From Symbiodinium sp. CCMP2592 (lineage: Eukaryota; Sar; Dinophyceae; Suessiales; Symbiodiniaceae), in contig CAJNDT010006024.1 of the NCBI GenBank assembly GCA_905221615.1, positions 62,001 to 126,000 on the forward strand: a DNA stretch of 64,000 nt, read 5' to 3'. Position 1 is the stretch's first letter; each line of letters opens with the position of its first letter. The notes under the pieces are model-generated. The model searched no databases. It was given only the letters and a program-made list of their open reading frames with translations, and had not been told where the DNA came from. Of this stretch, positions 29,927 to 57,690 are shown in pieces. The position numbers were made by a program, and so were the translations under genes.

Positions 29927-31612
29927 CTAGGCGGCGTTGCTTGGAAAGCTGCTCATACAGCTCCGGGTCCTGCCATGACGGCAAATGGGTGGACGTAAGA
30001 TCAGGTGGGGCTGCGGCTCCTCTTCGTCAGAGCCGGCATCATCAGGCCGAGCCGGACCTGTCAATCTTTCTGCCCATGGCATGACCCCGCAATTTTCGGC
30101 ATTAGCGCATGCGATGACTGCTATATCATAAGCAGTCAGAGCTGCTGGTTCCGTAGGGTCAAGCTCGTGCAAGCCAGCCAAGCTTTGTGGCCAAGCCCCT
30201 TGACTTGCACAGGCGCTCATAGCAGCATTGCATGCAACTGGATCGCCTTCTACGGCCAAATTCACTAATCCCTCGAGCAAGCACAATGCTGACTGCCATC
30301 TGCCCCCGCGCTCACAGGCCACAATGGAATCGGTGCATGTGTGAGCATCGCAAGAGGGCATTGCAAGTGCCTCCGACCCGAGAAGCAGAGACCTCTCCCA
30401 TCTGTTGGCATGAGTACACGCCGTGATGACCACGCTATGTGTGATCAGGTCTCTCTGCAAATACCGTGCATCCAGTTCGCTCAGCCAATAGAAGGCATGT
30501 TGCCACTGTGTCTTAGAGCTGGCTCTCAGAAGTGTGTGGAAGGTGATGAGGTCTGGAAGTAAGCGGTGGCTCTGGAGTTGTTCGAGCAGCAAGATGGCTT
30601 CCATCCACTCGCCACCGCCGAAGGCAGACAAGGCAGCGTTGAAGGTGACGAGGGTCGGCTGCAGCTTGCCCAGCAGAAGAGACTGCAAGAAAAACATCGC
30701 CAACGTCCAATCCTTTGAAGTGCTGATTATTGAGTTGTAGCTGATGACATCTGGTTGCACGTTCTGCATCGACAACATCTCAAACAACGCCAAAGCCTGC
30801 TGCCACTGGGAACACTTCTCGCAGGCGCTGATGGCAGCATTGTAAGCATTTACTGTTTGTGTCCGAACTCGACCTCGTTGCAACGATATCACGCTGGCCA
30901 AGGCTTGCTGCCATTGGTTTTCCGTCTCGCATGCGCCTATGCATGAGCTGTGCATGACTCCATCCGGCTGGACGCTGCATGCCGGCGCCTCTGACAGAAG
31001 CACCAATACTCTTTGCCAAAGCTCTAGTCTCGCACCATTCCTGTAGCCATTTCTGCAAGAATTCATTGTAGCACTCAGCGTCATCTGCGTGCATCTTACT
31101 GAGCTTCCAGTCATCCAGGACAGCAGCCCACCAGCGTGGACCCAGTGTGAGCGTCTTGCGAAGGCTGAAATGACGGTGTTGGACAAGACTGCGTCCTTTT
31201 CATAGCTATTCCGCGCACAGTCCGCGAGCAGATGGCATGCTTGCTTCCATTTGGCACTGATTGAAAAGGCATTAGCTGCTGAATTAAAGGAAACCGCAGT
31301 GAGCCTCAGATCACGACCTAACTTCCGAAGGTGCAGCGATGTTGTCTGCCACTGCTGTCCTCGACCACAAATCGTGAGCAGAGCATTTTGCAAGACAACG
31401 TCTGACTGAATTCCTTGAGTGGCCAAGTCTGCGACTGTCAAGATGGCTCTCGGCCACCGCTTTGCAGTGCTCCGCGAGACCGCTTCAGTGGATCGAAGCA
31501 AGCTTTCTTTGTGTCGGGACCCCTTGTTCACATGTGCGCCGGGCTTACTTCCAGCATCTTGGCTTCTCCAGTTGCGCTGCGTCCCCTCTGCCAGAACCGT
31601 GCCGACGACCAT
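29927..31612 (-). CDS. pentatricopeptide repeat (PPR) protein
   Basis: This is an intact single-exon gene of 561 aa. From about residue 55 the sequence is a run of roughly 35-residue helical repeats with the PPR pattern: SYNSIISTSKDWTLAMFFL, NAYNAAISACEKCSQWQQAL, TFNAALSAFGGGEWMEAILL, TFHTLLRASSKTQWQHAFYW. About eleven to thirteen repeats can be counted. PPR proteins bind organellar RNA and act in editing, stability or translation. The basic, Ser/Thr-rich first 50 residues could be a targeting peptide, though no clear bipartite plastid signal is visible. The last 40 residues are acidic, then Arg/Ser-rich. The family is greatly expanded in dinoflagellates and often intronless, as here. The ATG at 31612 gives the longest frame. 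Confidence 0.9.
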   Translation of the reverse strand: MVVGTVLAEGTQRNWRSQDAGSKPGAHVNKGSRHKESLLRSTEAVSRSTAKRWPRAILTVADLATQGIQSDVVLQNALLTICGRGQQWQTTSLHLRKLGRDLRLTAVSFNSAANAFSISAKWKQACHLLADCARNSYEKDAVLSNTVISAFARRSHWVHAGGLLSWMTGSSVRCTQMTLSATMNSCRNGYRNGARLELWQRVLVLLSEAPACSVQPDGVMHSSCIGACETENQWQQALASVISLQRGRVRTQTVNAYNAAISACEKCSQWQQALALFEMLSMQNVQPDVISYNSIISTSKDWTLAMFFLQSLLLGKLQPTLVTFNAALSAFGGGEWMEAILLLEQLQSHRLLPDLITFHTLLRASSKTQWQHAFYWLSELDARYLQRDLITHSVVITACTHANRWERSLLLGSEALAMPSCDAHTCTDSIVACERGGRWQSALCLLEGLVNLAVEGDPVACNAAMSACASQGAWPQSLAGLHELDPTEPAALTAYDIAVIACANAENCGVMPWAERLTGPARPDDAGSDEEEPQPHLILRPPICRHGRTRSCMSSFPSNAA

Positions 31613-31829
31613 GTATTCCTGTATGTATCATCATTGCGACTGGCACTCTAGAGCTGCGCTAGACGGACAGCTGTCGTTGCCGGCATCGTTGGAATCTGCA
31701 TCCGGTCCAGGAAGACGGGCCAGCACAATTAGTTGCGGACATCTGCACAGTCATGCGCAGCACCCTGGAGCCATAATTCGCATGTGCATACTGTAGACAG
31801 ACACGGACATGCCGTCAAGTACGAAAGTT

Positions 31830-33179: not shown

Positions 33180-33268
33180 ATAGTAGTGGTCCTCGTAACA
33201 GTTGTAGTAGCACTGGTGAGAGTAGCAGGAGTAGTAGGATTAGTAGTAGTAGTAGTAGTAGTAGTAGA
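33180..33268. repeat. degenerate (TAG)n microsatellite at the LINE 3' end
   Basis: TAGTAG-type repeats with interruptions run up to the 3' end of the LINE. On the coding strand the element ends with three AATCT units followed by TAC repeats. A second TAG tract lies at the other end of the element. Confidence 0.8.
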
Positions 33269-33432
33269 TTAGATTAGATTTCCTCGCAGCGGAGGGAGTC
33301 CGCCATGCGACGAGTTAGAACGGGACTCGTTCCCGGCGCTTCAAGCGCTCAACCTTATGTTAAGGCGACTCCGACTGATTGCCACCGCCCCTGAGGGCCT
33401 TGTAAAGCATGGCAATTCAAGAATCAACGCAA

Positions 33433-35158
33433 TCATCTGAGAGTGGACACCGCCTCATAACGGTAGAACAGTATGTAAGCATCACGACGATGATTCGGTG
33501 GCGAGCACTGGTGCAGCTGAGGGATGCGAGCATCGTCACACAGCCAAACGCTTTTTTGGAATCAATCAAAGCAGCAGTGTAGTGACCGCTTTTGGGCGTG
33601 AGCCCGTGATGCACTATGCACGCAACGAGTTTGTAGTTCACATACTCTCGCGCAACTCCCTCAGTACGGAAACATGGCATCAGAAGATGTGGATCGTCCA
33701 ATGGCACCTCCATTCGATTCTTTTTGACATGTCCACCGTGCCGTTTGAAGCGCATAATCTGCAAGGTCAGGATGTGAGGCAAACGGCATAGGCCTTGTGT
33801 GCGATCTCGGCCATTTTGCCAAAAGTCAATCATCGATTGTACCTGGGCAACCGCATGAAGTCCTGGTGGTGCTGAAGGTAACGGCAGTAACAGAGGCTGG
33901 GTGCATGGCCCCTGATCGATGCATTGTACACCGCCCCCAAGAGCAAGACTGCGAGCTTGCCATAAACCCTGAAATGATGGAAGATTCATCGCAGGAAGAA
34001 GGTGACCCAGGAATTCGCCCACATCATGTTGTCTATGCACCTCTGCCCAGCCAGCGACGAGATCTCGCCACTCCTGAACCTCCAGAAGCGTTATATAAGA
34101 GCTTCGCATGGAAATAGAGGTGAAGAAGCAAGCGCCTGTCCCCATAGCATCCGCTCCATGGCCGATGTCGTACAGTAGCCATTCCAAGACCTGCGCAGTC
34201 GCGTTCATGTAGCATGCATTGGCCGGGTTCGTGTAAATGCGCCTTAGTACCGGAGCTGCTCGTGGATCTTCTGAGCCAGTGGTCCCCGGCCCATTCGTTC
34301 CCTCCTGTAACCCAGTCCGATCAACTGAAAGATGCAGCAGCCCTGGAGCTCGATCAAGAGGTCCCAGATCTCCTCCGCGTGCTTGTTCCTGACCGACAAG
34401 TCTAGCTTGAAAGTAGCGTTGCTGTCCATGGTCTCCGTCATCTTCCTGGTGCAATGGAACCGATGCACAACATCCCTCTTGACGTGTTCCACTAGGTGCT
34501 CGAGCTTGTTCGCCATCTCGACGTCCGGGACCGCCGCTCTCGTTTTGTCGAGCTCTAGATGCTTCAGCTTCGGATTCCACTGCTGAAAGTGCCAACCCTG
34601 AGCGTCTCGCCATCCCATGTCCGTCGCCCGTTTGGTGAGCTCCTGAGATGCGAGAACCTTGGCATGGCGATCCCTGAGCTCCCGAAACATCGACATCGCC
34701 ATCACCTGCTTCAACGGCATGTGTGCCATTCCCCACGATGGTTCGGCGGCCTGTTTCTTCTTGAATTCGAAGGCCGTACGATAGAGGTGGTTTAAGATGG
34801 AGTCGCCCCCCGGACTGAACCAAAGGACCAGGGCCGTATCCTGTTTGAGCAGATTGATTTCCTGCTCCTGCTGCAGGACGACACGTGCCAAAGAATAGAC
34901 CAAGGGGTCCCTGCCGTGATGTTGGTAGTGGCTCTGGGGATAGTGGTGATGAGAGTGCCCCTGGTGATGTCGATGGTTGCCCCAGTGTGCGTCCTGTCCC
35001 CAGTCCGCATGCTGCTGGGTCTCCCGTCTTCTTTTTGGGTGCATTCCCGAATCGTCTCCCCCATTGGTCCCAGTGGCCGTCTGAGCCGGTTCCGGACCCA
35101 GTCGAAACGCTCCAAAGAACTCGTCCATCTCTTGATCCCGAACTGCCGATCCGAACAT
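33433..35158 (-). CDS. LINE-encoded ubiquitin-specific protease (USP) protein
   Basis: This third coding region of the LINE starts with MFGSAVRDQEMDEFF at 35158, after an in-frame stop. Its first 300 residues include a His-rich stretch and a helical part (frame 35158-34244). The USP domain follows in a second frame. It has a Cys box (NPANACYMNATAQVLEWLL), the QHDVGEFL box, and a His box (NYKLVACIVHHGLTPKSGHY). A third frame then gives CDDARIPQLHQCSPPNHRR and DAYILFYRYEA, the usual USP ending, with a stop at 33433. Together these are the catalytic Cys, His and Asp regions of a deubiquitinase. The frame changes fall near a CC run (34.24 kb) and an A6 run (33.54 kb). A role in protecting element proteins from ubiquitin-dependent turnover is inference. 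Confidence 0.75.
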
Positions 35159-35219
35159 TGTCGAGGGTACTCACCGAAGCCTGCATCAAACATAAAACTG
35201 CACATTGCCAAATGGTAGT

Positions 35220-36126
35220 ACAGTTGTACATGTGTGCTCGCCAGTCCTTGGGTGCCGTTCCGCAGTAGTGGCAGCGGACGCTGGGAGTAGCACTCAGTTC
35301 AATGATACGTGCGATTTCTTTCTTGCTTGGCTGGAAAAATTTCAGGATGGTTGTTACGATAGTGCAACTTCATCACTTTTTGGGATGCCACCCACTGCCC
35401 GCATAAACCACAATGCTGGTGAAGCCGACAGGTGATATCGGACTGTTGTATGAAGAAGCGTAGGCCTTTATTCGCCGTCTGTTGAACCAAGAGCTGTTGC
35501 GCGAGGGGTTTATCATGTCGTACTCCAAGCGTGGGCTCAGGCACACTCGCATGATCATGATCATGTTCAGGTAGGAGATCTTCGCATGCTGCTTCGTCTG
35601 CATCCGCATTCAGATCATGCACATGAGATAGTTTAACAGACTGAACCGTCTCCCTATCCGCACTGACGGTCTGCGCTGCGTGCATAAGAGGGCAGGCTAG
35701 AGTGTTAATGTGATGTGCCAGGGTCTGCCAGCGCGCGAACCGCTTCTCACAAAATCGGCAAGTGGGCAACCCCTTCACAGCGTGGCATGCTTTGTCAAAG
35801 ATGCGGAGTGGTTTGTTCTTGATGCCATGAGCCCTATAAGCATGTATCTTGAGAGCTGCCGCCGTGCTGAAGAAAGAGTCGCACTCCGGGCAGGCCCAAT
35901 TTTCAGGCTCAGAGTCCTCCATCTGACCAGAAGTCACCGCAGTGGCTTCCTGAAGGCAGCGCTGAATATGCGCATCCCACTCCGGTAAGTGCATCCAATC
36001 GAGTTCCCCGCCATCGACTTCATGGTCGTGGGCCCGCTTGATGAGAACCCCCACGTCCTCCAGATGATACTTCTCACGGACTTCCTGATGCGAGCGGCCT
36101 GTTATATGACGAGGGTCAGAGACCAC
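35220..36126 (-). CDS. LINE C-terminal C2H2 zinc-finger region
   Basis: This is the C-terminal part of the LINE polyprotein. Three Cys/His units are visible in the frame 36126-35299: CPECDSFFSTAAALKIHAY, CRFCEKRFARWQTLAHHI and CGLCGQWVASQKVMKLHY. After a one-base shift in a T5 run near 35,330 a fourth appears (CHYCGTAPKDWRAHMYNC). Such fingers in LINEs bind nucleic acid. The region upstream joins the RT thumb through another small indel at a TGTG repeat near 36,125. No termination signal is recognised. Confidence 0.75.
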
Positions 36127-39100
36127 ACAGCTCTAAGGTGTTTCATCGATGCAGTCTGGATAACCTTCATAAGCTTGGGCGTCAGGCCAAATGAGTGGAG
36201 GCCGTACAGCAGCGAGGACTGCACGCAAGACCTGTATATTTGCAGCTTATACCTTACCGAGAGCCTGCGAGAATGAAGCACCGGGGCCAGGACCCATCTG
36301 CGTTGGTTGGCCTTTGCAATTCGATGTCGCGTGGAGAGTGCCTCGAAGCGGTCGTATGCAATGACCAGTCCCAGGTATTCAGCTTGAGTGACCAGCGGGA
36401 GCCATTTCGTTGGGTCCTTCGGAGAAAGAAGAAGACGTTGCCCTCGGCACCAGCGCGAACATAGTGCTTATGAACTTTCCTCTTGTCATTGCCGGCAACC
36501 ATAAGCAAGGCCTGGGTTTTCTTCTCGTTCACCTTCATACCAAACCGAGCGAAGATCCGCAAGACCTGCCTTAGTTCAGCAATCGCGTGTTCCAATCCAG
36601 AGAACGAGCTGAACTGCCACCTTAGGTGTGAGTCGTCTGCATATAGCACGGCATGGTCAACGGACCAGCATTGCTTGAGTTGAATGTCGAAGGCCTGACA
36701 CAGAAGTGCCGTAAAGATACCCCAGAGCATTGGGGACGCGATGCATCCTTGCCGCAAACCCCATTGTGGCCTGATAGATTTGGTGTCCTTGCCGTGATGA
36801 AAGACGTAGACGACTTGGCAGAGCCACTGTAGAAGCAGTTCCTGGACTGAGGCATTGATGTGTGCTAGCTCCATCGCATCTTTGATGTGCTGCCATCCGA
36901 CTATAAGTCAAAAGCGGCTGTCAAATCCAAACTGATCTGGAGTCCTCCAGAAAAGGGTGGCGCAGGCTTGCCGTCATATTTATCATGAAGACTTTGTCGA
37001 GTTAGAGCACATTGCTTCCGGACAGCATCACAATGTGCAAACACAGTCTTAAGAGCGGTGGTGGTCGATCGTCCTGGCAGATAAGCTGTCTGAGGCCAAT
37101 TCCGTACCAGTGCGATCATGTCCGTCTTGGCCATAGACAACACCACCTTCATGATTGTTTTCCCAATGGGGCGCTGAAGGCCAATCGGTCGCAGGTCTAA
37201 GGGAGTGTTGGCATTCGGCTTCCCTTTAGGCAAGAGCGCAACATCCGCCTGTGCCCAATCCTGATGGACTTGCACATGTGATTCCTGCCAAGTTTCATTC
37301 ACCTTGCCCACCAGGGGAACGACTATCTGCTCCGCACAAGCGCGCCACACTACCGCCGGGACAGCCCCCGGGGGGACTGCTTTCCTCATCGGAATTTTTA
37401 GGAGCTCTTCCAGCACGTGGTCCTCCTGCAGTTGCACCGGAGCATGCTGCCGTAACAAAGGGCCCGGAGTACCCGACGACTGCGCCCCAAAGCGCTTCCC
37501 GAACTCCTCGGCGATCCATTCAAGCTCGGCACTGGGAGTCATGATGTGCCCATGCTTGTAGAGCTGCACCTTTTTCGGTCGACTTTTGGGAGCAAGGCGT
37601 TTGACCACACTCCACATCTCATGCGCGTTGCCTTGTTTGGCAGCCTGTTCGGCTTGTTCCAGTAGTTCATCCCGCCGGACCTTGGAGCGGACTTTGGCAC
37701 GTTGTTTGTGAATGCGATGTGCTTGTGAGAACTGGGTCCAAAGTCGCCACGCCTCCACGATGCCTCTTGCCGTATAGGGTTGGGCCTTCATACGTCGATG
37801 CAGCTGCCACATATGTCGTGCACTGTTGGCTAGCTCCTCCGGTTGAGTGGGCGGCTTGGTTGGCTTCTCAGTAAGGGGGTAGTGTTTGATCGCCACCTGC
37901 TTGACCATTGCATCCATGGAGGTGAGGTCTGCAGTGATTAGACTGGCTACCTCTTCGCGGAAAGCCTGAAGAGCTGGGGTGCCGGTCGGTTCTCTGAGGT
38001 CCACGATCATCTTCTTGGTGTTAATCTGAGGTGAGATGTCAGACTTGGGCTTGGACAACCAATGCGGTCTGAGAGCCTCTACTGCATGGTGGTTCGCGCC
38101 CTCACGCCAACTGGCAACCGGATATTTTGATATTACGCCCGCCTGCTTTGCACAGGTAGTCGCCATGTGCTGCCTGACCATCACGTAGTCAATCTGGGAC
38201 TGCAGCTTACCGAATGTAAAAGTGGCCAAAGTGTGTGTTTTAGTGGGTGCTTTCCACGTGTTTAGAAGTACAAGCGCCTGCGCCTCACAAAGATGTAGCA
38301 AATCCATGTAGTCAGCCTTGTGGTTCTCCACCACCGGGAGCACATGTGGCCCGCAGACCTTTGGCACAGGACTACAGGAGCTATTGAAGTCGCCCGACAT
38401 GATGAGAGCGTGGCGCCGCGGCAGGCCAGACAGATATCTTTGGAGACACTGAAGGAAGCGGTGCCTGTTCTCAGGCGTCTCTGGTTTGTCATTAGCCGCG
38501 TATTGATAGACATTAAGAATGTCCAATGGAACTTTGCCTGCATGAATCCGTACGTGTAGTAGGCGTCCCGGGCGCACACCTTGGTATTGCAAATCGGTCT
38601 TGGCTGCCAGTTTGGCAGACACGATGGTGAGCAGGCCCCCGACCTTGTCCAGTTTGTTCCGCCCCGCCGAGTGAATGAAATGATAGTCCGCTGTGCTCCA
38701 GCAGTTGTCCTCGGCCCATTTTGTCTCCTGAACAAGGCAGATGTCCATGTTTTCATCCCGAACAAAAGTGAGCAGCTCCTGGTAAACATCACTGCTCAAT
38801 CCACCCGCGTTCCAGGTCATCGTTCTGAGCATCCTGGTACGAGACTGGGGTGCAGGAGGCACTGTCTTAGGTAGATGTACCGGACGCACTCTAGCTCGCT
38901 GAAACCATCCTGGTTGATGCCACCCTCCGCGGTAGTATGCCCCACCTTGTCGCATCGCCCTTGCGCAGGCTCGCTGGTAGGACCTTTTCATGATTCTTGA
39001 GGTGTCGGAGGCCAAGGTTGTAGAAGGCATGCTGGCCTCTCGTAATCTGCTTGGCTTTGCCTCCACGGAGGCTCCAGGCGGCATAGCATAGCAGATGGAC

Positions 39101-39525
39101 CGCCAACCCTCACATCTGTGCTCCCAGCTGTGGCAATGTGCATCTGATACATGAATAGGACGAGTCCACACACACGTACAGAGAGAAATTTGCCGAGAGC
39201 ACCACCGGACTTGGGACCGGTGCGGCCGACCATTGTATTCCGAGTCCACGAGGATCGTGGAGCGCCTTGTACAAAGCTGCTGTTTGGTCTTGTCAAGTCT
39301 GCTGCGCACTGTGCAGAGCCGCTTGAGAAAACTGCCACGAAGGTCCGACCAGTACTGCACAGAAGCGTGGCGACTGCAGAGCTGAGGGACCTGATCAGAA
39401 GGCAGACGTAGCATCCCAAGAGAAAAGGAAGCATTGCCACCGATGCGGTACAGAGTAAGCTTTGCGCCGCGGTAGAACAGAAGGTGCAGGTAGAGTACCT
39501 GGCCGCCCCCGTGCATGACAGACAA
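36126..39525 (-). CDS. LINE endonuclease-reverse transcriptase polyprotein, frameshifted
   Basis: The AP-like endonuclease nicks target DNA and the RT copies the element RNA at the nick. The endonuclease (about 38820-38050) shows MTWNAGGLSS, LVQETKW (Glu), MSGDFNSSC (Asp/Asn), QIDYVMV and HHAV. The RT shows RPIGLQRPIGKTIMKVV, SLDLTAAFD (first Asp), GLRQGCIASPMLWG and YADDSHLRW (catalytic pair). The 874-codon frame ends in a TAG at about 36,900 just after AAFDL. One extra C would restore the frame through GWQHIKDAMELAH. A second shift near 36,425, at a T3 run, leads to SPKDPTKWLPLVTQAEYLGL and the thumb. The part of the open frame above about 39,000 is probably not translated as drawn, since KQITRGQHAFYNLGLRHL lies in another frame. 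Confidence 0.87.
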
Positions 39526-41201
39526 GTGGTGATTGCATTCAGCATGGCAGACGTCTTCGCAACTTCGGGCTCACGGCTGCTCTGCCCCCGAGTGATCGGC
39601 AGTTCAGGCCCATATAAAAGACAACCCGACTGATTAGGGCCCGTTGGCTCCATATCGGGTGCGACCCTGGAGGTTTTAGAGTCCCTAGGCAGCGCTTTCA
39701 CTGTTCCGTCGCCTTGGCACTTAGGGTGGGCGGGGGTAGGTGCAAGCACAAGCACGAAAAACTGCCAAGCGCAAAGAGAGGCAACTGTCAGAAGAAGCAA
39801 TCGCGATTGAGAGCCCCACTTCCGATTGGCCCTGGGCTTGGCCGTAGCGCCTCCTCGTGCTCGATCTGTCATGGTGGGCGGTGTCACAGGTGCCACGGCG
39901 GTGGCATGGGAGGTCGCTCCAGCTGTGTCAGGCACCGGCATTCCAGGTCCCCATGAGGCTGTAGTACCTGTAGTGCCACTACCGCCGCCTGCGCCGCTGG
40001 ACATGGCCGTCGTTGTCGGGGTAGTCCCTGGCCCTGGTCCATCTCCCGCAGCTGTCACCGCTTCCTCGACATTCAGTTCAGACTCGCTGGCGTCTTCGCT
40101 TGCATTCATCCACAGAGTGTTCGGGTGGTAGCTGGCGAGGCGGTTTCCGAGGTGAGAGATGTCAATCCTCAGTGAATCCATGGAGGACAGGCTTCCGGTA
40201 TTCAGCGTCAGTGCCCTTCGGATCGGCGTGCCACGTCGCTCCATCTCGTTGCGACTGCCATTGAGATAGCATGACTTTGCGGTTGTTCCGCTTGCACCAC
40301 CTGTGGAGGCGGAGGCCCAGCCGGCAATGGCGTGCCATGCGGCGTATGGTGCTCCTCACTTTCCTCAAAGTCACTGGAGTGTATGGGATCCTCCCGCGCA
40401 GCCATGCTCACAATCGTCTGTATCCACGTCAGAGGCCCCAGAAAGGGGATTGGGCCTGTGCAGGCAGCTGCAACCCTGGAATCTTGAGCCTGCACATATG
40501 AACGACATTTGTTCGCATTTAGCAGCCTGAAGAAAGCTTCTGTCAGCTGTTCACACTTGCAGTGACCAAAGAACATCTCCAATACTTGAATGGGGCACTG
40601 TAACACCATGCAACGCAGGAAAGCCCGCTTCCAGCACCTGGCACGGAAAGCAGATCGTCTAAAGTCCCTGGCCCGGCTGCGAGGGCCGCGCCTGCGGCGC
40701 CGAACTGGCCATCTTCTTGTCCAACGTCTGCCTCGCCTCCCTATGCAGAGGAAGTTTGTCGACGGAGCTTGCAGGCACTCTTCAGTCCATGCTATGGAGG
40801 TCCCAAACACCCAAACATGAGGGGTCCCCAGAGTCAGGCCATAGGAAACTGCTCCAGCTGGGATGATACAATGCGCACCACCTGCGAAGGCTCTCCTCGT
40901 CGGGCGGGTATTTGGAGTATCGAGCAGCTTGCAGTATGACTCCAGGATGGGCGGCTGTACCCCATTGTATGTCAAAGCGATTGAAGTAGTCTGGATCCGA
41001 AAGCCATCCCTTCGCAACTCGCAGCATGTGTTGACCCACTATGGAAGTCCAGTGAACCCGAATACCAACCTCCAAGAAAGATTCCCGGGCTGCTTCACGT
41101 GCCGGGGAGGCTGGCATCTTGTTGCGTCCCATGCGTTTGCTTGCAGCGATGGTGTGCTTGAAAGCGCACCCCAGATCAAAAGCAGCAGTCTTGCCATTCA
41201 C
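38988..41201 (-). CDS. LINE 5' region / ORF1-like fragments
   Basis: Open frames at 41201-40782 (starting MNGKTAAFDLGCAFKH), 41017-40208 (ending ATRWSDVARRSEG) and 40244-38988 overlap in different frames. They probably represent one broken first coding region. The C-terminal part is Pro/Gly/Thr-rich with a hydrophobic stretch (LLLLTVASLCAWQFFVLVLA). No RNA-binding motif or zinc knuckle is recognised. Position upstream of the endonuclease and matching orientation support an ORF1 role, but the function is unknown. Confidence 0.45.
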
Positions 41202-41310
41202 TCGCAGAGCTGGAAATTCGTGTTTATTTCAAGAGCACAGCTACAAGCGAAGGCACTCGCGTTTGCGAGTCTTCAAGGCTTCGGGCAACACGCCCCTCTC
41301 GGCCGAGATG

Positions 41311-41544
41311 CTTGTAGTAGTAGTAGTGGTAGTAGCAGTAGTAGCAGTAGTAGCAGTAGTAGTAGAAGAAGTCATCGGCAGTTAGTACTAGTGGTAGGAG
41401 TAGGAATAGGAGGAGGGGGAGGGGTAGGGGTAGGAGTAGGAATAATAGTAGTAGTAGTAGTAGTAGTAGTAGTAGCAGCAGTCGTCGGTTAGTAACAGTA
41501 ACAGTAGCAGCATCAATATCATTATCATTAGCAGCCGCAGTCGC

Positions 41545-41616
<72 letters not shown>

Positions 41617-53066: not shown

Positions 53067-53384
53067 TACCATGCTTGACTTCCTTTGGAACAATAGCTAG
53101 GGGAGCTGCCTTGCCTCTGCAAATGCCATCGCAGGCACCATTTTGATTTCGATGCTCCAGCGGTAAGCTGTGAATCGGCACCCAGCGACTCCTCGCGCAC
53201 AAAACATCGGCCCGAAGCAATCGTGCATCAGTCCTGCTCCACATGGTTTGCCGAGACGTCGGACTCATGTTCGTACTGAGAATAATTAGATCGTCCACAT
53301 CCAGCAATCTTTGCCGCAGCATTCACGGCTCCAGCAAGAAACTGGAGTAGAATGGTACCTGAATTCTGCTTCTCCAAACCCAAA

Positions 53385-54180
53385 TTTTAGGGACAGTACA
53401 GCACTTTAGGGCACTGGAGTTCAAAAGTGCTGTACTGTCCCTAAATGTGGCCTCTGCCAAACCCAACTTTTAGGGACAGTACAAGACTTTAGGGCACCTG
53501 GGTTTCAACAGTGCTGTACTGTCCCTAAAATTTGGCTTTCCCAAGCCAAAAGTGCTGTACTGTCCCTAAAAAACCTAAAAAACCTATCCTCCAGAGACTA
53601 TCGGCTGGGAACGCTTGAAGGTTGCTGGGGGATAGGTTTTTTAGGTTTTTTAGGGACAGTACAGCACTTTTGGCTTGGGAAAGCCAAATTTTAGGGACAG
53701 TACAGCACTTTGGGGCACTGGAGCTTCAAAAGTGTTGTACTGTCCCTAAATTCGGCCTCTGCCAAACCCAACTTTTAGGGACAGTACAGCACTTTAGGGC
53801 ACCTGGGTTTCAAAAGTGCTGTGCTGTCCCTAAAATTTGGCTTTCCCAAGCCAAAAGTGCTGTACTGTCCCTAAAAAACCTAAAAAACCTATCCTCCAGA
53901 GACTATCGGCTGGGAACGCCTGCAGGTTGCTGGGGGATAGGTTTTTTAGGTTTTTTAGGGACAGTACAGCACTTTTGGCTTGGGAAAGCCAAATTTTAGG
54001 GACAATACAGCACTTTGGGGCACTGGAGCTTCAAAAGTGTTGTACTGTCCCTAAATTTGGCCTCTGCCAAACCCAACTTTTATGGACAGTACAGCACTTT
54101 AGGGCACCTGAGCTTCAAAAGTGCTGTGCTGTCCCTAAAATTTGGCTTTCCCAAGCCCAAATGAAAAGGACTGCACAGCA
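53385..54180. repeat. foldback tandem array, ~305-bp units with nested palindromes
   Basis: Units start at 53,385, 53,689 and 53,994, so the array has about 2.6 copies with a period of 304-305 bp. The core TTAGGGACAGTACAGCACTT occurs about eight times in each orientation, so each unit folds on itself. Open frames across the array (for example 53622-53999 plus) translate the repeat and are not taken as genes. Confidence 0.93.
53510..53709. repeat. perfect 80-bp inverted repeat with 40-nt loop
   Basis: Arm 53,510-53,589 is the exact reverse complement of 53,630-53,709, with loop 53,590-53,629. The next unit has the same structure at 53,815-53,894 and 53,935-54,014, with two mismatches. Transcription from either strand would give a long hairpin. 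Confidence 0.95.
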
Positions 54181-55989: not shown

Positions 55990-57690
55990 CTAGAAACCTT
56001 CCTCTACTGCAGGGTCATGTTCCCCATCTTCTTCTTCATCTCCCTCGGCATCATCATCATCATCTCCCTGCGGCTCGTTCTTGGCCTGGTCATCCACGAT
56101 CTGGGTCTGCGTGGGCTTCGGGATCTTGATAGGCGACTCTTTCGGCCTGGGAGTGGATATGACTGCAAGGCATATATGTGTATGTGTGTTTGTGCGTGCT
56201 ATTTTGTGGGTGTGTGTCGGTGTGAGCTTGTCTCTATGTGTGTGCTCTTTAACATATGCGTGCAGCATGCATGCTTCGAAGTGTGTATGTGTGTATATGT
56301 ACACATATGTCTGAATAATGGATCTATCTATGCATCCAACCAAGTCATGGTAAATTAAGACGATTCAAGTTGCGACTTCGGGAAGTGTTTCAGGCCAAGC
56401 GAATTGACAGTTTGCCAATCCAAAGCTGAAGCTTCCCAATCGTGGTCGTGAGCCAGTAGATCATCTCGACAGCCTCTGTAGTTGATCTCCGCCGGATTCA
56501 AGTTCATGTACACATAGCAATCGGCGAAGGTCATGGCGATGTGCATCGCTTTCCTCACACTGAGGCTGTCCCGGATGACCAGCTGGAGCTTCTGAACCCA
56601 CCTGCTCGAGGCATCGTGGCGATCCTCGCGAGCCTCGACCTTGATCAGGGGGTTCTTGGAGCCTTGCGTGCAGTACTTGCAGCGGATTATCGAGTACACA
56701 TAGTCCTCGATAGGTTTGTCGGCCTTCGCTTTGCGTTTGCTGGCTGTCGGCTTGGGCTTCTGCTGGGCAACAGTCGGGGCCGGCAAACCAAGACCACTCT
56801 CTAGGTCTGCAGGCACGAGGTGCGGAACCGACCACATAAGACCATCGGGGAATTGAACGAAAACCTCATCCTCTTTCACAAAGGGCTTCGAAGAAAACAC
56901 CGGGCCGGTCTGGCTTTCGAGGCAGGCACGTTGCATCTCGTAGTCCCACCAGATATCGCCAGGCTGTCGCTTGTCCTGGGCTAGGTTGGGTTGTGTTTTG
57001 GCAAGGGCTTTGTGGAGCTTCATAATGATTTTTATTTGGGCTCTGAACTGTTTCAGCTCAGGGGCTGCCTTCTGCTTGGATTGGTTCTCGGGGGCCTTGT
57101 CGTTGGACTCGGGGGCCTTCTTGTCGGACTGCTTCTCGGGGGCCTTCTCGTTGGACTGCTTCTCGGGGGCCTTCTTGGACTGCTTCTCGGGGGCCTTCTT
57201 GTCGGAGTGCTTCTCGGGGGCCTTCTTGTCGGAGTGCTTCTCGGGGGCCTTCTCGGACTGCTTCTTGGGGGCCTTCTTGTCGGAGTGCTTCTCGGGGGCC
57301 TTCTCGTTGGACTGCTTCTCGGGGGCCTTCTCGGACTGCTTCTCGGGGGCCTTCTCGTTGGACTGCTTCTCGGGGGCCTTCTTGTCGGACTGCTTCTCGG
57401 GGGCCTTCTTGTCGGACTGCTTCTTGCGGGTCTTCTCGTTGGACTGCTTTTCGGAGTCTTTCTCGGCGTCTTTGTCCTTCTCGTCCACAAAAGCGCTCAT
57501 CTTCTTCAGACTAGGTTTTCTCTTGTTGTTCTCGGGCTTCGGTTCTTCGTCGGCTTTTCGCTTGTTCCGAGGCGGCTCCTCGGCGGCTGGGCTCTCCAGC
57601 AGCTGCGTCTCTCGGCGTCGACTTGGACCAGGAGTCGGCGAAAGGTAGCCTTGGATCGAAGGAGTAATGGTTTCTCGTACATCGTTATCA
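55990..57690 (-). CDS. KAPEKQS-repeat protein of unknown function
   Basis: The main frame runs from about 57,690 to 56,355 and a last exon probably from about 56,165 to 55,990 (acidic, GDDDDDAEGDEEEDGEHDP, then TAG). The N-terminus is basic and Pro-rich. About 13 units of the KAPEKQS(D/N)(K/E) type then form a highly charged, probably disordered tract. The C-terminal 250 residues look folded (DEVFVQFPDGLMWSVPHLV, YVYSIIRCKYCTQGSKNPLI, RWVQKLQLVIRDSLSVRKAM). That part resembles multi-copy dinoflagellate proteins, with no known function. No ATG is obvious at the start of the frame. An AG acceptor before YLSPTPGP suggests a missing first exon upstream. Confidence 0.6.
57062..57445 (-). repeat. 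coding minisatellite (27-33 bp units)
   Basis: About 13 tandem units encode the KAPEKQS repeats. All units keep the frame even though their lengths vary by a codon or two, which supports translation. The opposite strand is also open through the repeat (SGAFLSDCF units), as a consequence of repetition. Confidence 0.88.

Follow-up and report, generated by a model that had tools for sequence, protein, structure and literature searches.

A LINE family of Symbiodinium with a predicted ubiquitin-specific protease downstream of its reverse transcriptase and a putative gene nested within ORF2

Does a ubiquitin-specific protease (USP) found next to a retrotransposon of Symbiodinium, a coral-symbiont alga, belong to that element, or does it lie beside a truncated copy by chance? 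The question was raised by a stretch of 64,000 nucleotides (hereafter the window) from Symbiodinium sp. CCMP2592 (assembly GCA_905221615.1, contig CAJNDT010006024.1, positions 62,001 to 126,000), an isolate named S. tridacnidorum in the part of PMC8045281 available to us. A sequence-only reading had proposed that positions 33433..35158 of the window hold a LINE that encodes a USP, which follows the reverse transcriptase (RT) and zinc fingers on the same strand and comes before the 3′ tail repeats. In this study, the element was delimited in the window and compared with sister copies in the same genome and with related proteins in databases.

The features of the window copy are listed in Table 1. 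The element lies on the minus strand between TAC arrays, in the 5′ to 3′ order 5′ ORF, endonuclease, RT, zinc fingers, linker and USP; it starts with AAGCATCTC, adjoining a TAC array, and ends with AATCTAATCT(TAC)n. As had been proposed, the USP shares the orientation of the RT and precedes this tail. The 5′ motif AAGCATCTCGGCC was present in all five sister copies whose 5′ region was read. When direct repeats were sought between positions 30000 and 43000, only TAC arrays exceeded 27 bases among the 20 largest families, and no LTRs were seen. With an RT, an upstream endonuclease, no LTRs and a simple-repeat 3′ tail, the element is a non-LTR retrotransposon of the apurinic-endonuclease type. 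The PF00078 match of the RT was stronger in the related protein P0002 (E 3.8e-17); against PDB, the RT gave weak matches of L1 ORF2p type only (2.6e-05 to 5.3e-05). In the window, the frame of ORF2 changes near 36904, 36400, 36130 and 35330, and once more inside the USP near 33540. Given at least four frame changes upstream of the USP, the window copy is dead, and it is unable to make a fused RT-USP protein. We are highly confident, for anatomy and selection taken jointly and not for the target of the USP, that it belongs to a large Symbiodinium family of non-LTR retrotransposons, as a nearly full-length copy that has decayed.

Table 1. Features of the LINE copy and its flanks (positions within the window).
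Feature	Position	Strand	Remarks
Whole LINE copy	33266..41313	-	5′ end AAGCATCTCGGCC at 41313, 3′ end at TAC tail; frame-broken
(TAC)n 3′ tail	33221..33267	-	
(GTA/TAC)n array, 5′ flank of LINE copy	41314..41616	.	
5′ ORF (ORF1-like)	40782..41117	-	~112 codons in window copy
Apurinic-type endonuclease domain (PF03372)	38134..38817	-	E 7.5e-09
Reverse transcriptase (PF00078)	36135..37263	-	over three frames through frameshifts; E 5.6e-09
Zinc-finger region, C2H2-type (PF13894 and PF00096)	35181..35919	-	
Putative nested ORF, 304 aa, +1 relative to ORF2	34244..35158	-	ATG at 35158, stop codon ends at 34244; no Pfam family
ORF2 linker, ORF2 frame over nested ORF	34245..35180	-	0 stops observed, ~10-13 expected
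Predicted USP (UCH, PF00443) domain, Cys/QHD..EF/His/Asp boxes	33433..34244	-	frameshift near 33540, ahead of Asp box
3′ UTR with block TCGTCGCATGGCGGACTC..CGCTGCGAGGAAATC	33267..33432	-	

TAC-type arrays also adjoin other copies. The sister copies L014, L016 and L023, like the window copy, begin directly after such arrays, and many copies end in such tails. The copies with both flanks examined sit inside TAC-type arrays, which would mask any target-site duplication; the element behaves as if it targeted the TAC microsatellite or the tails of earlier copies. Elsewhere in the window, an uninterrupted frame for a PPR-repeat protein (PF13041, 1.5e-22) was seen at 29927-31627 on the minus strand, along with a 305-bp tandem repeat at 53376-54161 that is 81% self-complementary and has TTTAGGGACAGTACAGCAC units, and a possibly coding tandem repeat at 57108-57465 (CTCGGGGGCCTTCTTGTCGGACTGCTT) in which periods of 27 and 51 bases occur.

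In the Pfam scan, the stop-free minus-strand frame 35369-33417 (650 codons) matched PF00443 with 52.3 bits (E 7.7e-14), spanning profile positions 140-222 of 254 only. In this frame, NPANACYMN forms the Cys box and GHYTA the His box, and RQHDVGEFL is present as a further box; past the frameshift near 33540 follow CDDARIP and then DAYILFYR, with the stop at 33435-33433. The boxes and the ending described in the sequence-only reading are thus present, the Asp box and the ending in another frame. The interval given there held up in part: the USP occupies ~34244-33433, whereas the first 915 bases (35158-34244) are an ORF of ~305 codons in the +1 frame inside the linker, and not USP. When a profile built from related USPs was used, it matched 34244-33540 over positions 1-234 of 240, with 279 bits. 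Moreover, PF00443 was matched by all 13 of the sister USP sequences, so that the match in the window is beyond chance. In an alignment of 13 USPs, chosen for a stop-free USP frame and not for their catalytic residues, no variation was seen at the Cys, at the His or at three residues of the QHD..EF box (Gln, Asp and Glu). The second Asp was likewise invariant; the first Asp was present in 12 and replaced by Asn in one. Among 23 USP rows at the protein level, several of them shortened by gene models, the Cys box was found in 17, the Q.D..EF box in 22, GHY in 21 and DD in 18. On the profile match and the catalytic Cys, His and Asp, the element domain is classed as a putative USP (Peptidase C19). 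Many USPs, although not all, have zinc-binding fingers with paired CxxC; such pairs were absent from all 13 aligned element USPs, and a single CxxC occurred in two. By profile, the nearest solved chains were USP46 and USP12 (PDB 5l8h and 5k16). The predicted structure of the USP (P0006 first) was poor, with a mean pLDDT of 40.

The place of the USP was then judged from 24 sister copies, picked by hand (20 mostly top RT matches and four from the weakest band of RT matches). USP sequence was found downstream of the RT in 22 of them. In 15 (L013, L014, L016-L025, L029, L030 and L032), RT, fingers and complete USP lay in one stop-free frame; for L029, L030 and L032 the reading began inside the RT, and L022 has a stop upstream, in the endonuclease, despite its open frame from RT to USP. 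In L028 the open frame reaches only the first third of the USP, and in L009, L011, L012, L026, L027 and L031 USP sequence is present in broken frames, L026 retaining only ~50 residues. In the remaining two, L010 and L015, homology ends inside the nested ORF or linker and tblastn found no USP in the DNA read; in L010 a PF00443 place lies ~11 kb further down on the same strand. Among the 24 copies read, none has a 3′ UTR directly behind its fingers, a finding that would have spoken for host sequence beside a truncated LINE; 13 RT places lay outside this reading. A 3′ UTR block of GCTGCG type and a tail of TAC/ACT/GCT type followed the USP stop in 17 of 23 USP copies, as judged by eye and with the window included; among the sister copies this is 16 of 22 with USP, in some of which the tail is short, and by a strict word count the tail passes in 11 of the 23. 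Block and tail were not seen in L026 (in which the USP is cut off), L028, L029, L030, L031 and L032. Of these, L029, L030 and L032 are deep copies and L031 is decayed, and none of the four offers the block and tail of the close family by which a 3′ end could be placed.

Genome-wide, 56 RT matches were found, or 50 places once six minor fragments were removed. A listed PF00443 place lay 0-8 kb downstream at 24 of the 50, which is a lower bound, as is the list itself (1371 candidates, of which 149 were scored, giving 148 places). Reading of the DNA added USP sequence at 11 further RT places, one of them partial; at C259 the nearest listed PF00443 place is ~11 kb downstream, at C395 homology is lost inside the nested ORF, and 13 of the 50 places were outside the DNA reading. 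When RT and USP distances were compared over 15 copies, their correlation was 0.94, and none of 10000 permutations reached as high; the RT, USP and nested distances correlated at 0.94-0.98, which fits common descent. The element USPs were also set against other USPs of the same genome. The profile of the element USPs gave -1 to 31 bits per stretch on the host-like USPs L039-L041, as compared with 174-306 bits on complete element USPs in DNA, and did not match L042 and L043, two further PF00443 stretches; L044, one of six further such stretches read, proved to be another element USP (234 bits). Given these low scores and the two unmatched stretches, the element USPs form a distinct, diverged group. 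The rival reading, capture of a host USP gene sequence by chance beside a truncated LINE, might draw on the broken frames of the window copy and on the many database gene models that stop ahead of the USP. It can be set aside as next to impossible, because 22 of the 24 sister copies have USP sequence, mostly followed by the 3′ end, because the USP is under selection (described below) and its distances correlate with those of the RT, and because the host-like USPs are so remote from it. Taken together, these comparisons indicate that the predicted USP lies within the limits of the LINE, as first proposed, and is passed on within the family as one of its standing domains rather than being there by chance.

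Related proteins in databases were searched as well. Against long proteins, a query with the USP part returned two matches, P0002 (RT and UCH, 64% identity over 95%) and P0003; a query with the nested ORF and USP returned 10, and one with RT and fingers returned 69. When the 74 distinct proteins were scored with our own iterated profiles, which were grown on the same proteins, RT was found in 70, the nested protein in 46 and the USP in 23, with RT and USP together in 21, six of which have an RT only 26-32% identical to the query. A USP match was lacking in 51 of the 74, mostly gene models that stop earlier. Since many models leave ORF2 and end at a stop of the nested frame, a missing USP in a gene model does not equal true absence. 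Proteins without USP include P0066 (endonuclease and RT only, 54 members), P0065, P0072 and P0073, the ends of which look cut or frame-shifted. The proteins came from Symbiodinium sp. CCMP2592, CCMP2456 and KB8, S. microadriaticum, EukProt and ENA entries, under names such as MCAT, Pol and Craniofacial development protein 2. These database names are clarified by the present element; of 69 rows, 6 were labelled MCAT and 5 Pol. Scans of viral contigs returned nothing.

The ORF found in the linker proved to be a second coding candidate. It has no Pfam family, and its predicted structure was poor (mean pLDDT 47). Over this ORF, the ORF2 frame of the window contains no stop, as compared with a mean of 13.2 in a simulation with synonymous codons and 9.7 in shuffles of its own codons, none of 20,000 being open in either. 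In all 13 copies compared, the nested frame was +1 of ORF2, and ORF2 over the nested gene had no stop in each, against 3.8-9.2 expected, with 0-47 of 5,000 shuffles open. Linkers of 21 sequences were also scored against the nested protein. The ten database relatives that reach the USP, together with the window, scored 665-1188 in the +1 frame and 239-315 in +2, with shuffle means of 363-416 (12 shuffles each). P0022, which ends in the linker, scored 856, and the linkers of P0041, P0060, P0061, P0062, P0063, P0068 and P0069 were only 3-10 standard deviations above shuffles; those of P0036 and P0024 gave no nested-protein signal in the +1 test. In the deep copies L029, L030 and L032, the nested ORF is plain in the DNA in the +1 frame. 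The start motif was detected in 11 of 26 sequences, and in these the nested ATG lay a few tens of bases past the last finger-like codons. Several gene models splice through the nested frame and enter it just before this ATG, an arrangement that would fit a separately spliced or trans-spliced message.

Selection was examined through codon positions in 78 pairs of 13 copies, the pairs not being independent of one another. ORF2 position 3 was the most different in 77 pairs for the RT, 75 for the fingers and 73 for the USP; in the overlap, it was ORF2 position 1 (position 3 in terms of the nested frame) that varied most, in 76 pairs. When four near-identical pairs were removed, the counts were 74, 74, 71 and 72 of 74 for RT, fingers, USP and overlap, respectively. 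In the pair L023-L024, for example, percent differences at ORF2 positions 1, 2 and 3 were 11/5/44 in the RT, 43/16/6 in the overlap and 19/13/43 in the USP. A scan along two pairs placed a switch in codon position at the nested ORF and a second at the 5′ end, with stretches just ahead of the endonuclease lacking a clear pattern; in L016-L020, one stretch of 100 codons before the nested core retains the ORF2 pattern. The dN/dS ratios (NG86) were obtained from 8 hand-picked pairs, some with common copies or near-copies, and were 0.13-0.19 for the USP (8 pairs), 0.03-0.05 for the RT (7 pairs, 1 saturated) and 0.05-0.08 for the nested frame (6 pairs, 2 saturated). By these estimates the predicted USP evolves faster than the RT. 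It is under purifying selection, and its Cys and His are invariant. Read in the ORF2 frame, the linker gave a dN/dS of 2.0-4.6, values that selection on the other (nested) frame produces. The linker sequence of ORF2 is thus nearly free but stops are excluded from it, and the kept feature is therefore the fusion of the USP to the RT.

Several gene models run from the fingers through the nested frame to the USP, as they would if splicing or a frameshift led into the nested frame as the genuine C-terminal part of ORF2, the open ORF2 frame across it being accidental. However, an accidental frame would not be expected to stay stop-free in all 13 copies, and P0013 and other models read straight into the USP; we regard this reading as improbable. 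Since neither frame is closed by stops and the codon-position rates follow the nested frame, the nested ORF is best described as a putative overprinted (dual-coding) gene. At the other end of the element, the 5′ ORF resembles an ORF of 140 codons in L016, L023 and L024, and was not found in L014 and L020 by a motif test. Its overlap with the open ORF2 frame was clear in L016 (5 of 3,000 shuffles open) and not significant in L023 and L024 (570 and 484 of 3,000, respectively). The 5′ ORF is a possible second overlap with ORF2 in the same element. These combined data argue strongly, for anatomy and selection as a whole, that in intact copies ORF2 is one long frame of endonuclease, RT, fingers, linker and USP, with a nested +1 gene and with selection on both the USP and the nested gene.

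Given that the linker frame is kept free of stops, translation of ORF2 would place the USP domain at the C-terminus of the RT protein. The USP could be thought to bind ubiquitin, or to act as a scaffold, without catalysis, as the missing paired CxxC fingers and the higher dN/dS relative to the RT might suggest; we give little credence to this reading, against which stand the Cys, His and second Asp invariant in all 13 aligned USPs. A second choice for the target of the USP is a protein of repair or chromatin where the element inserts, such as a ubiquitinated clamp or histone; the USP would thereby ease target-primed reverse transcription. The part of PMC2836005 available to us suggests a DNA-repair role for the Ulp1 and OTU domains of DNA transposons. 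USP46 and USP12 are the best PDB profile matches and zinc fingers lie in the same ORF; however, the match to USP46 and USP12 is at the family level only and names no target. Dinoflagellate chromatin, moreover, is poor in nucleosomes. This second choice is in our judgment unlikely, if less so than a non-catalytic role. The target that we prefer, tentatively and at somewhat under even chances, is the element's own protein. As an active deubiquitinase, the USP would accompany the RT-RNA particle and strip ubiquitin from the element's protein, which may spare it from the proteasome. The nested protein may be a partner in this particle, made from its own ATG or from a separately processed mRNA.

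Cysteine proteases of the ubiquitin and SUMO pathways are known from other mobile elements. As described in the accessible part of PMC4640811, the NeSL and Utopia LINEs resemble the present element in that a non-LTR protein carries such a protease (Ulp1-like) along with zinc fingers; there, the protease is N-terminal and a restriction-like endonuclease C-terminal, whereas here the USP is C-terminal and an apurinic-type endonuclease lies ahead of the RT. Pfam scans of the window pieces and relatives detected no Ulp1 domain and found UCH and Exo_endo_phos instead; membership in NeSL or Utopia was thus rejected. Helentrons with OTU, Ginger1 transposons with OTU or Ulp1, and a transposase_11 protein of T. 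vaginalis with Peptidase C19, the protease family of USPs, have been reported (PMC4067079, PMC2836005). They are likewise mobile elements with a recruited protease of deubiquitinase type but are DNA or rolling-circle elements, and the accessible parts of these papers describe neither a fusion to RT nor a nested gene. The catalytic domains of USP12 and USP46 have Cys, Q.D..EF, His and Asp boxes that align by profile with the element USP, which is compact and without paired CxxC fingers. In SART1, another bicistronic retroelement with overlapping reading frames, ORF1 and ORF2 overlap at a stop-start junction; in the present element, by contrast, a whole gene of ~300 codons would lie inside ORF2, near its 3′ end. 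In the literature searched, which lay outside subscription papers, Repbase reports and preprints, neither a USP in a LINE RT protein nor a whole gene nested in ORF2 of a non-LTR element was found. In the same genome, an ORF of 1837 aa in a tandem array (L045:52-5562, plus strand; C994) has an N-terminal USP (5.5e-18) followed by Helitron_like_N and an AAA helicase, which suggests that a Helitron-like element has recruited a USP as well. The PF00443 places C1715 and C2844, known from the list only, have the same score as C994 and a similar frame length.

We consider it probable, if well short of certain, that these copies represent a dinoflagellate LINE lineage in which a deubiquitinase is fused to the RT and a second essential gene lies wholly inside ORF2 in a different frame. 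One stretch of DNA would then encode, each in its own frame, both a particle protein and the tether between RT and deubiquitinase, and a third, 5′ gene appears to overlap the open ORF2 frame as well. Ulp1 and OTU proteases recur in mobile elements, and the accessible literature only suggests their roles. One genome alone has at least 15 copies whose frame stays open from the RT through the USP; the predicted USP-RT fusion would make a role of deubiquitination in retrotransposition directly testable, and the nested gene would be a long overlapping gene in a cellular retroelement, both frames of which can be measured by comparison.
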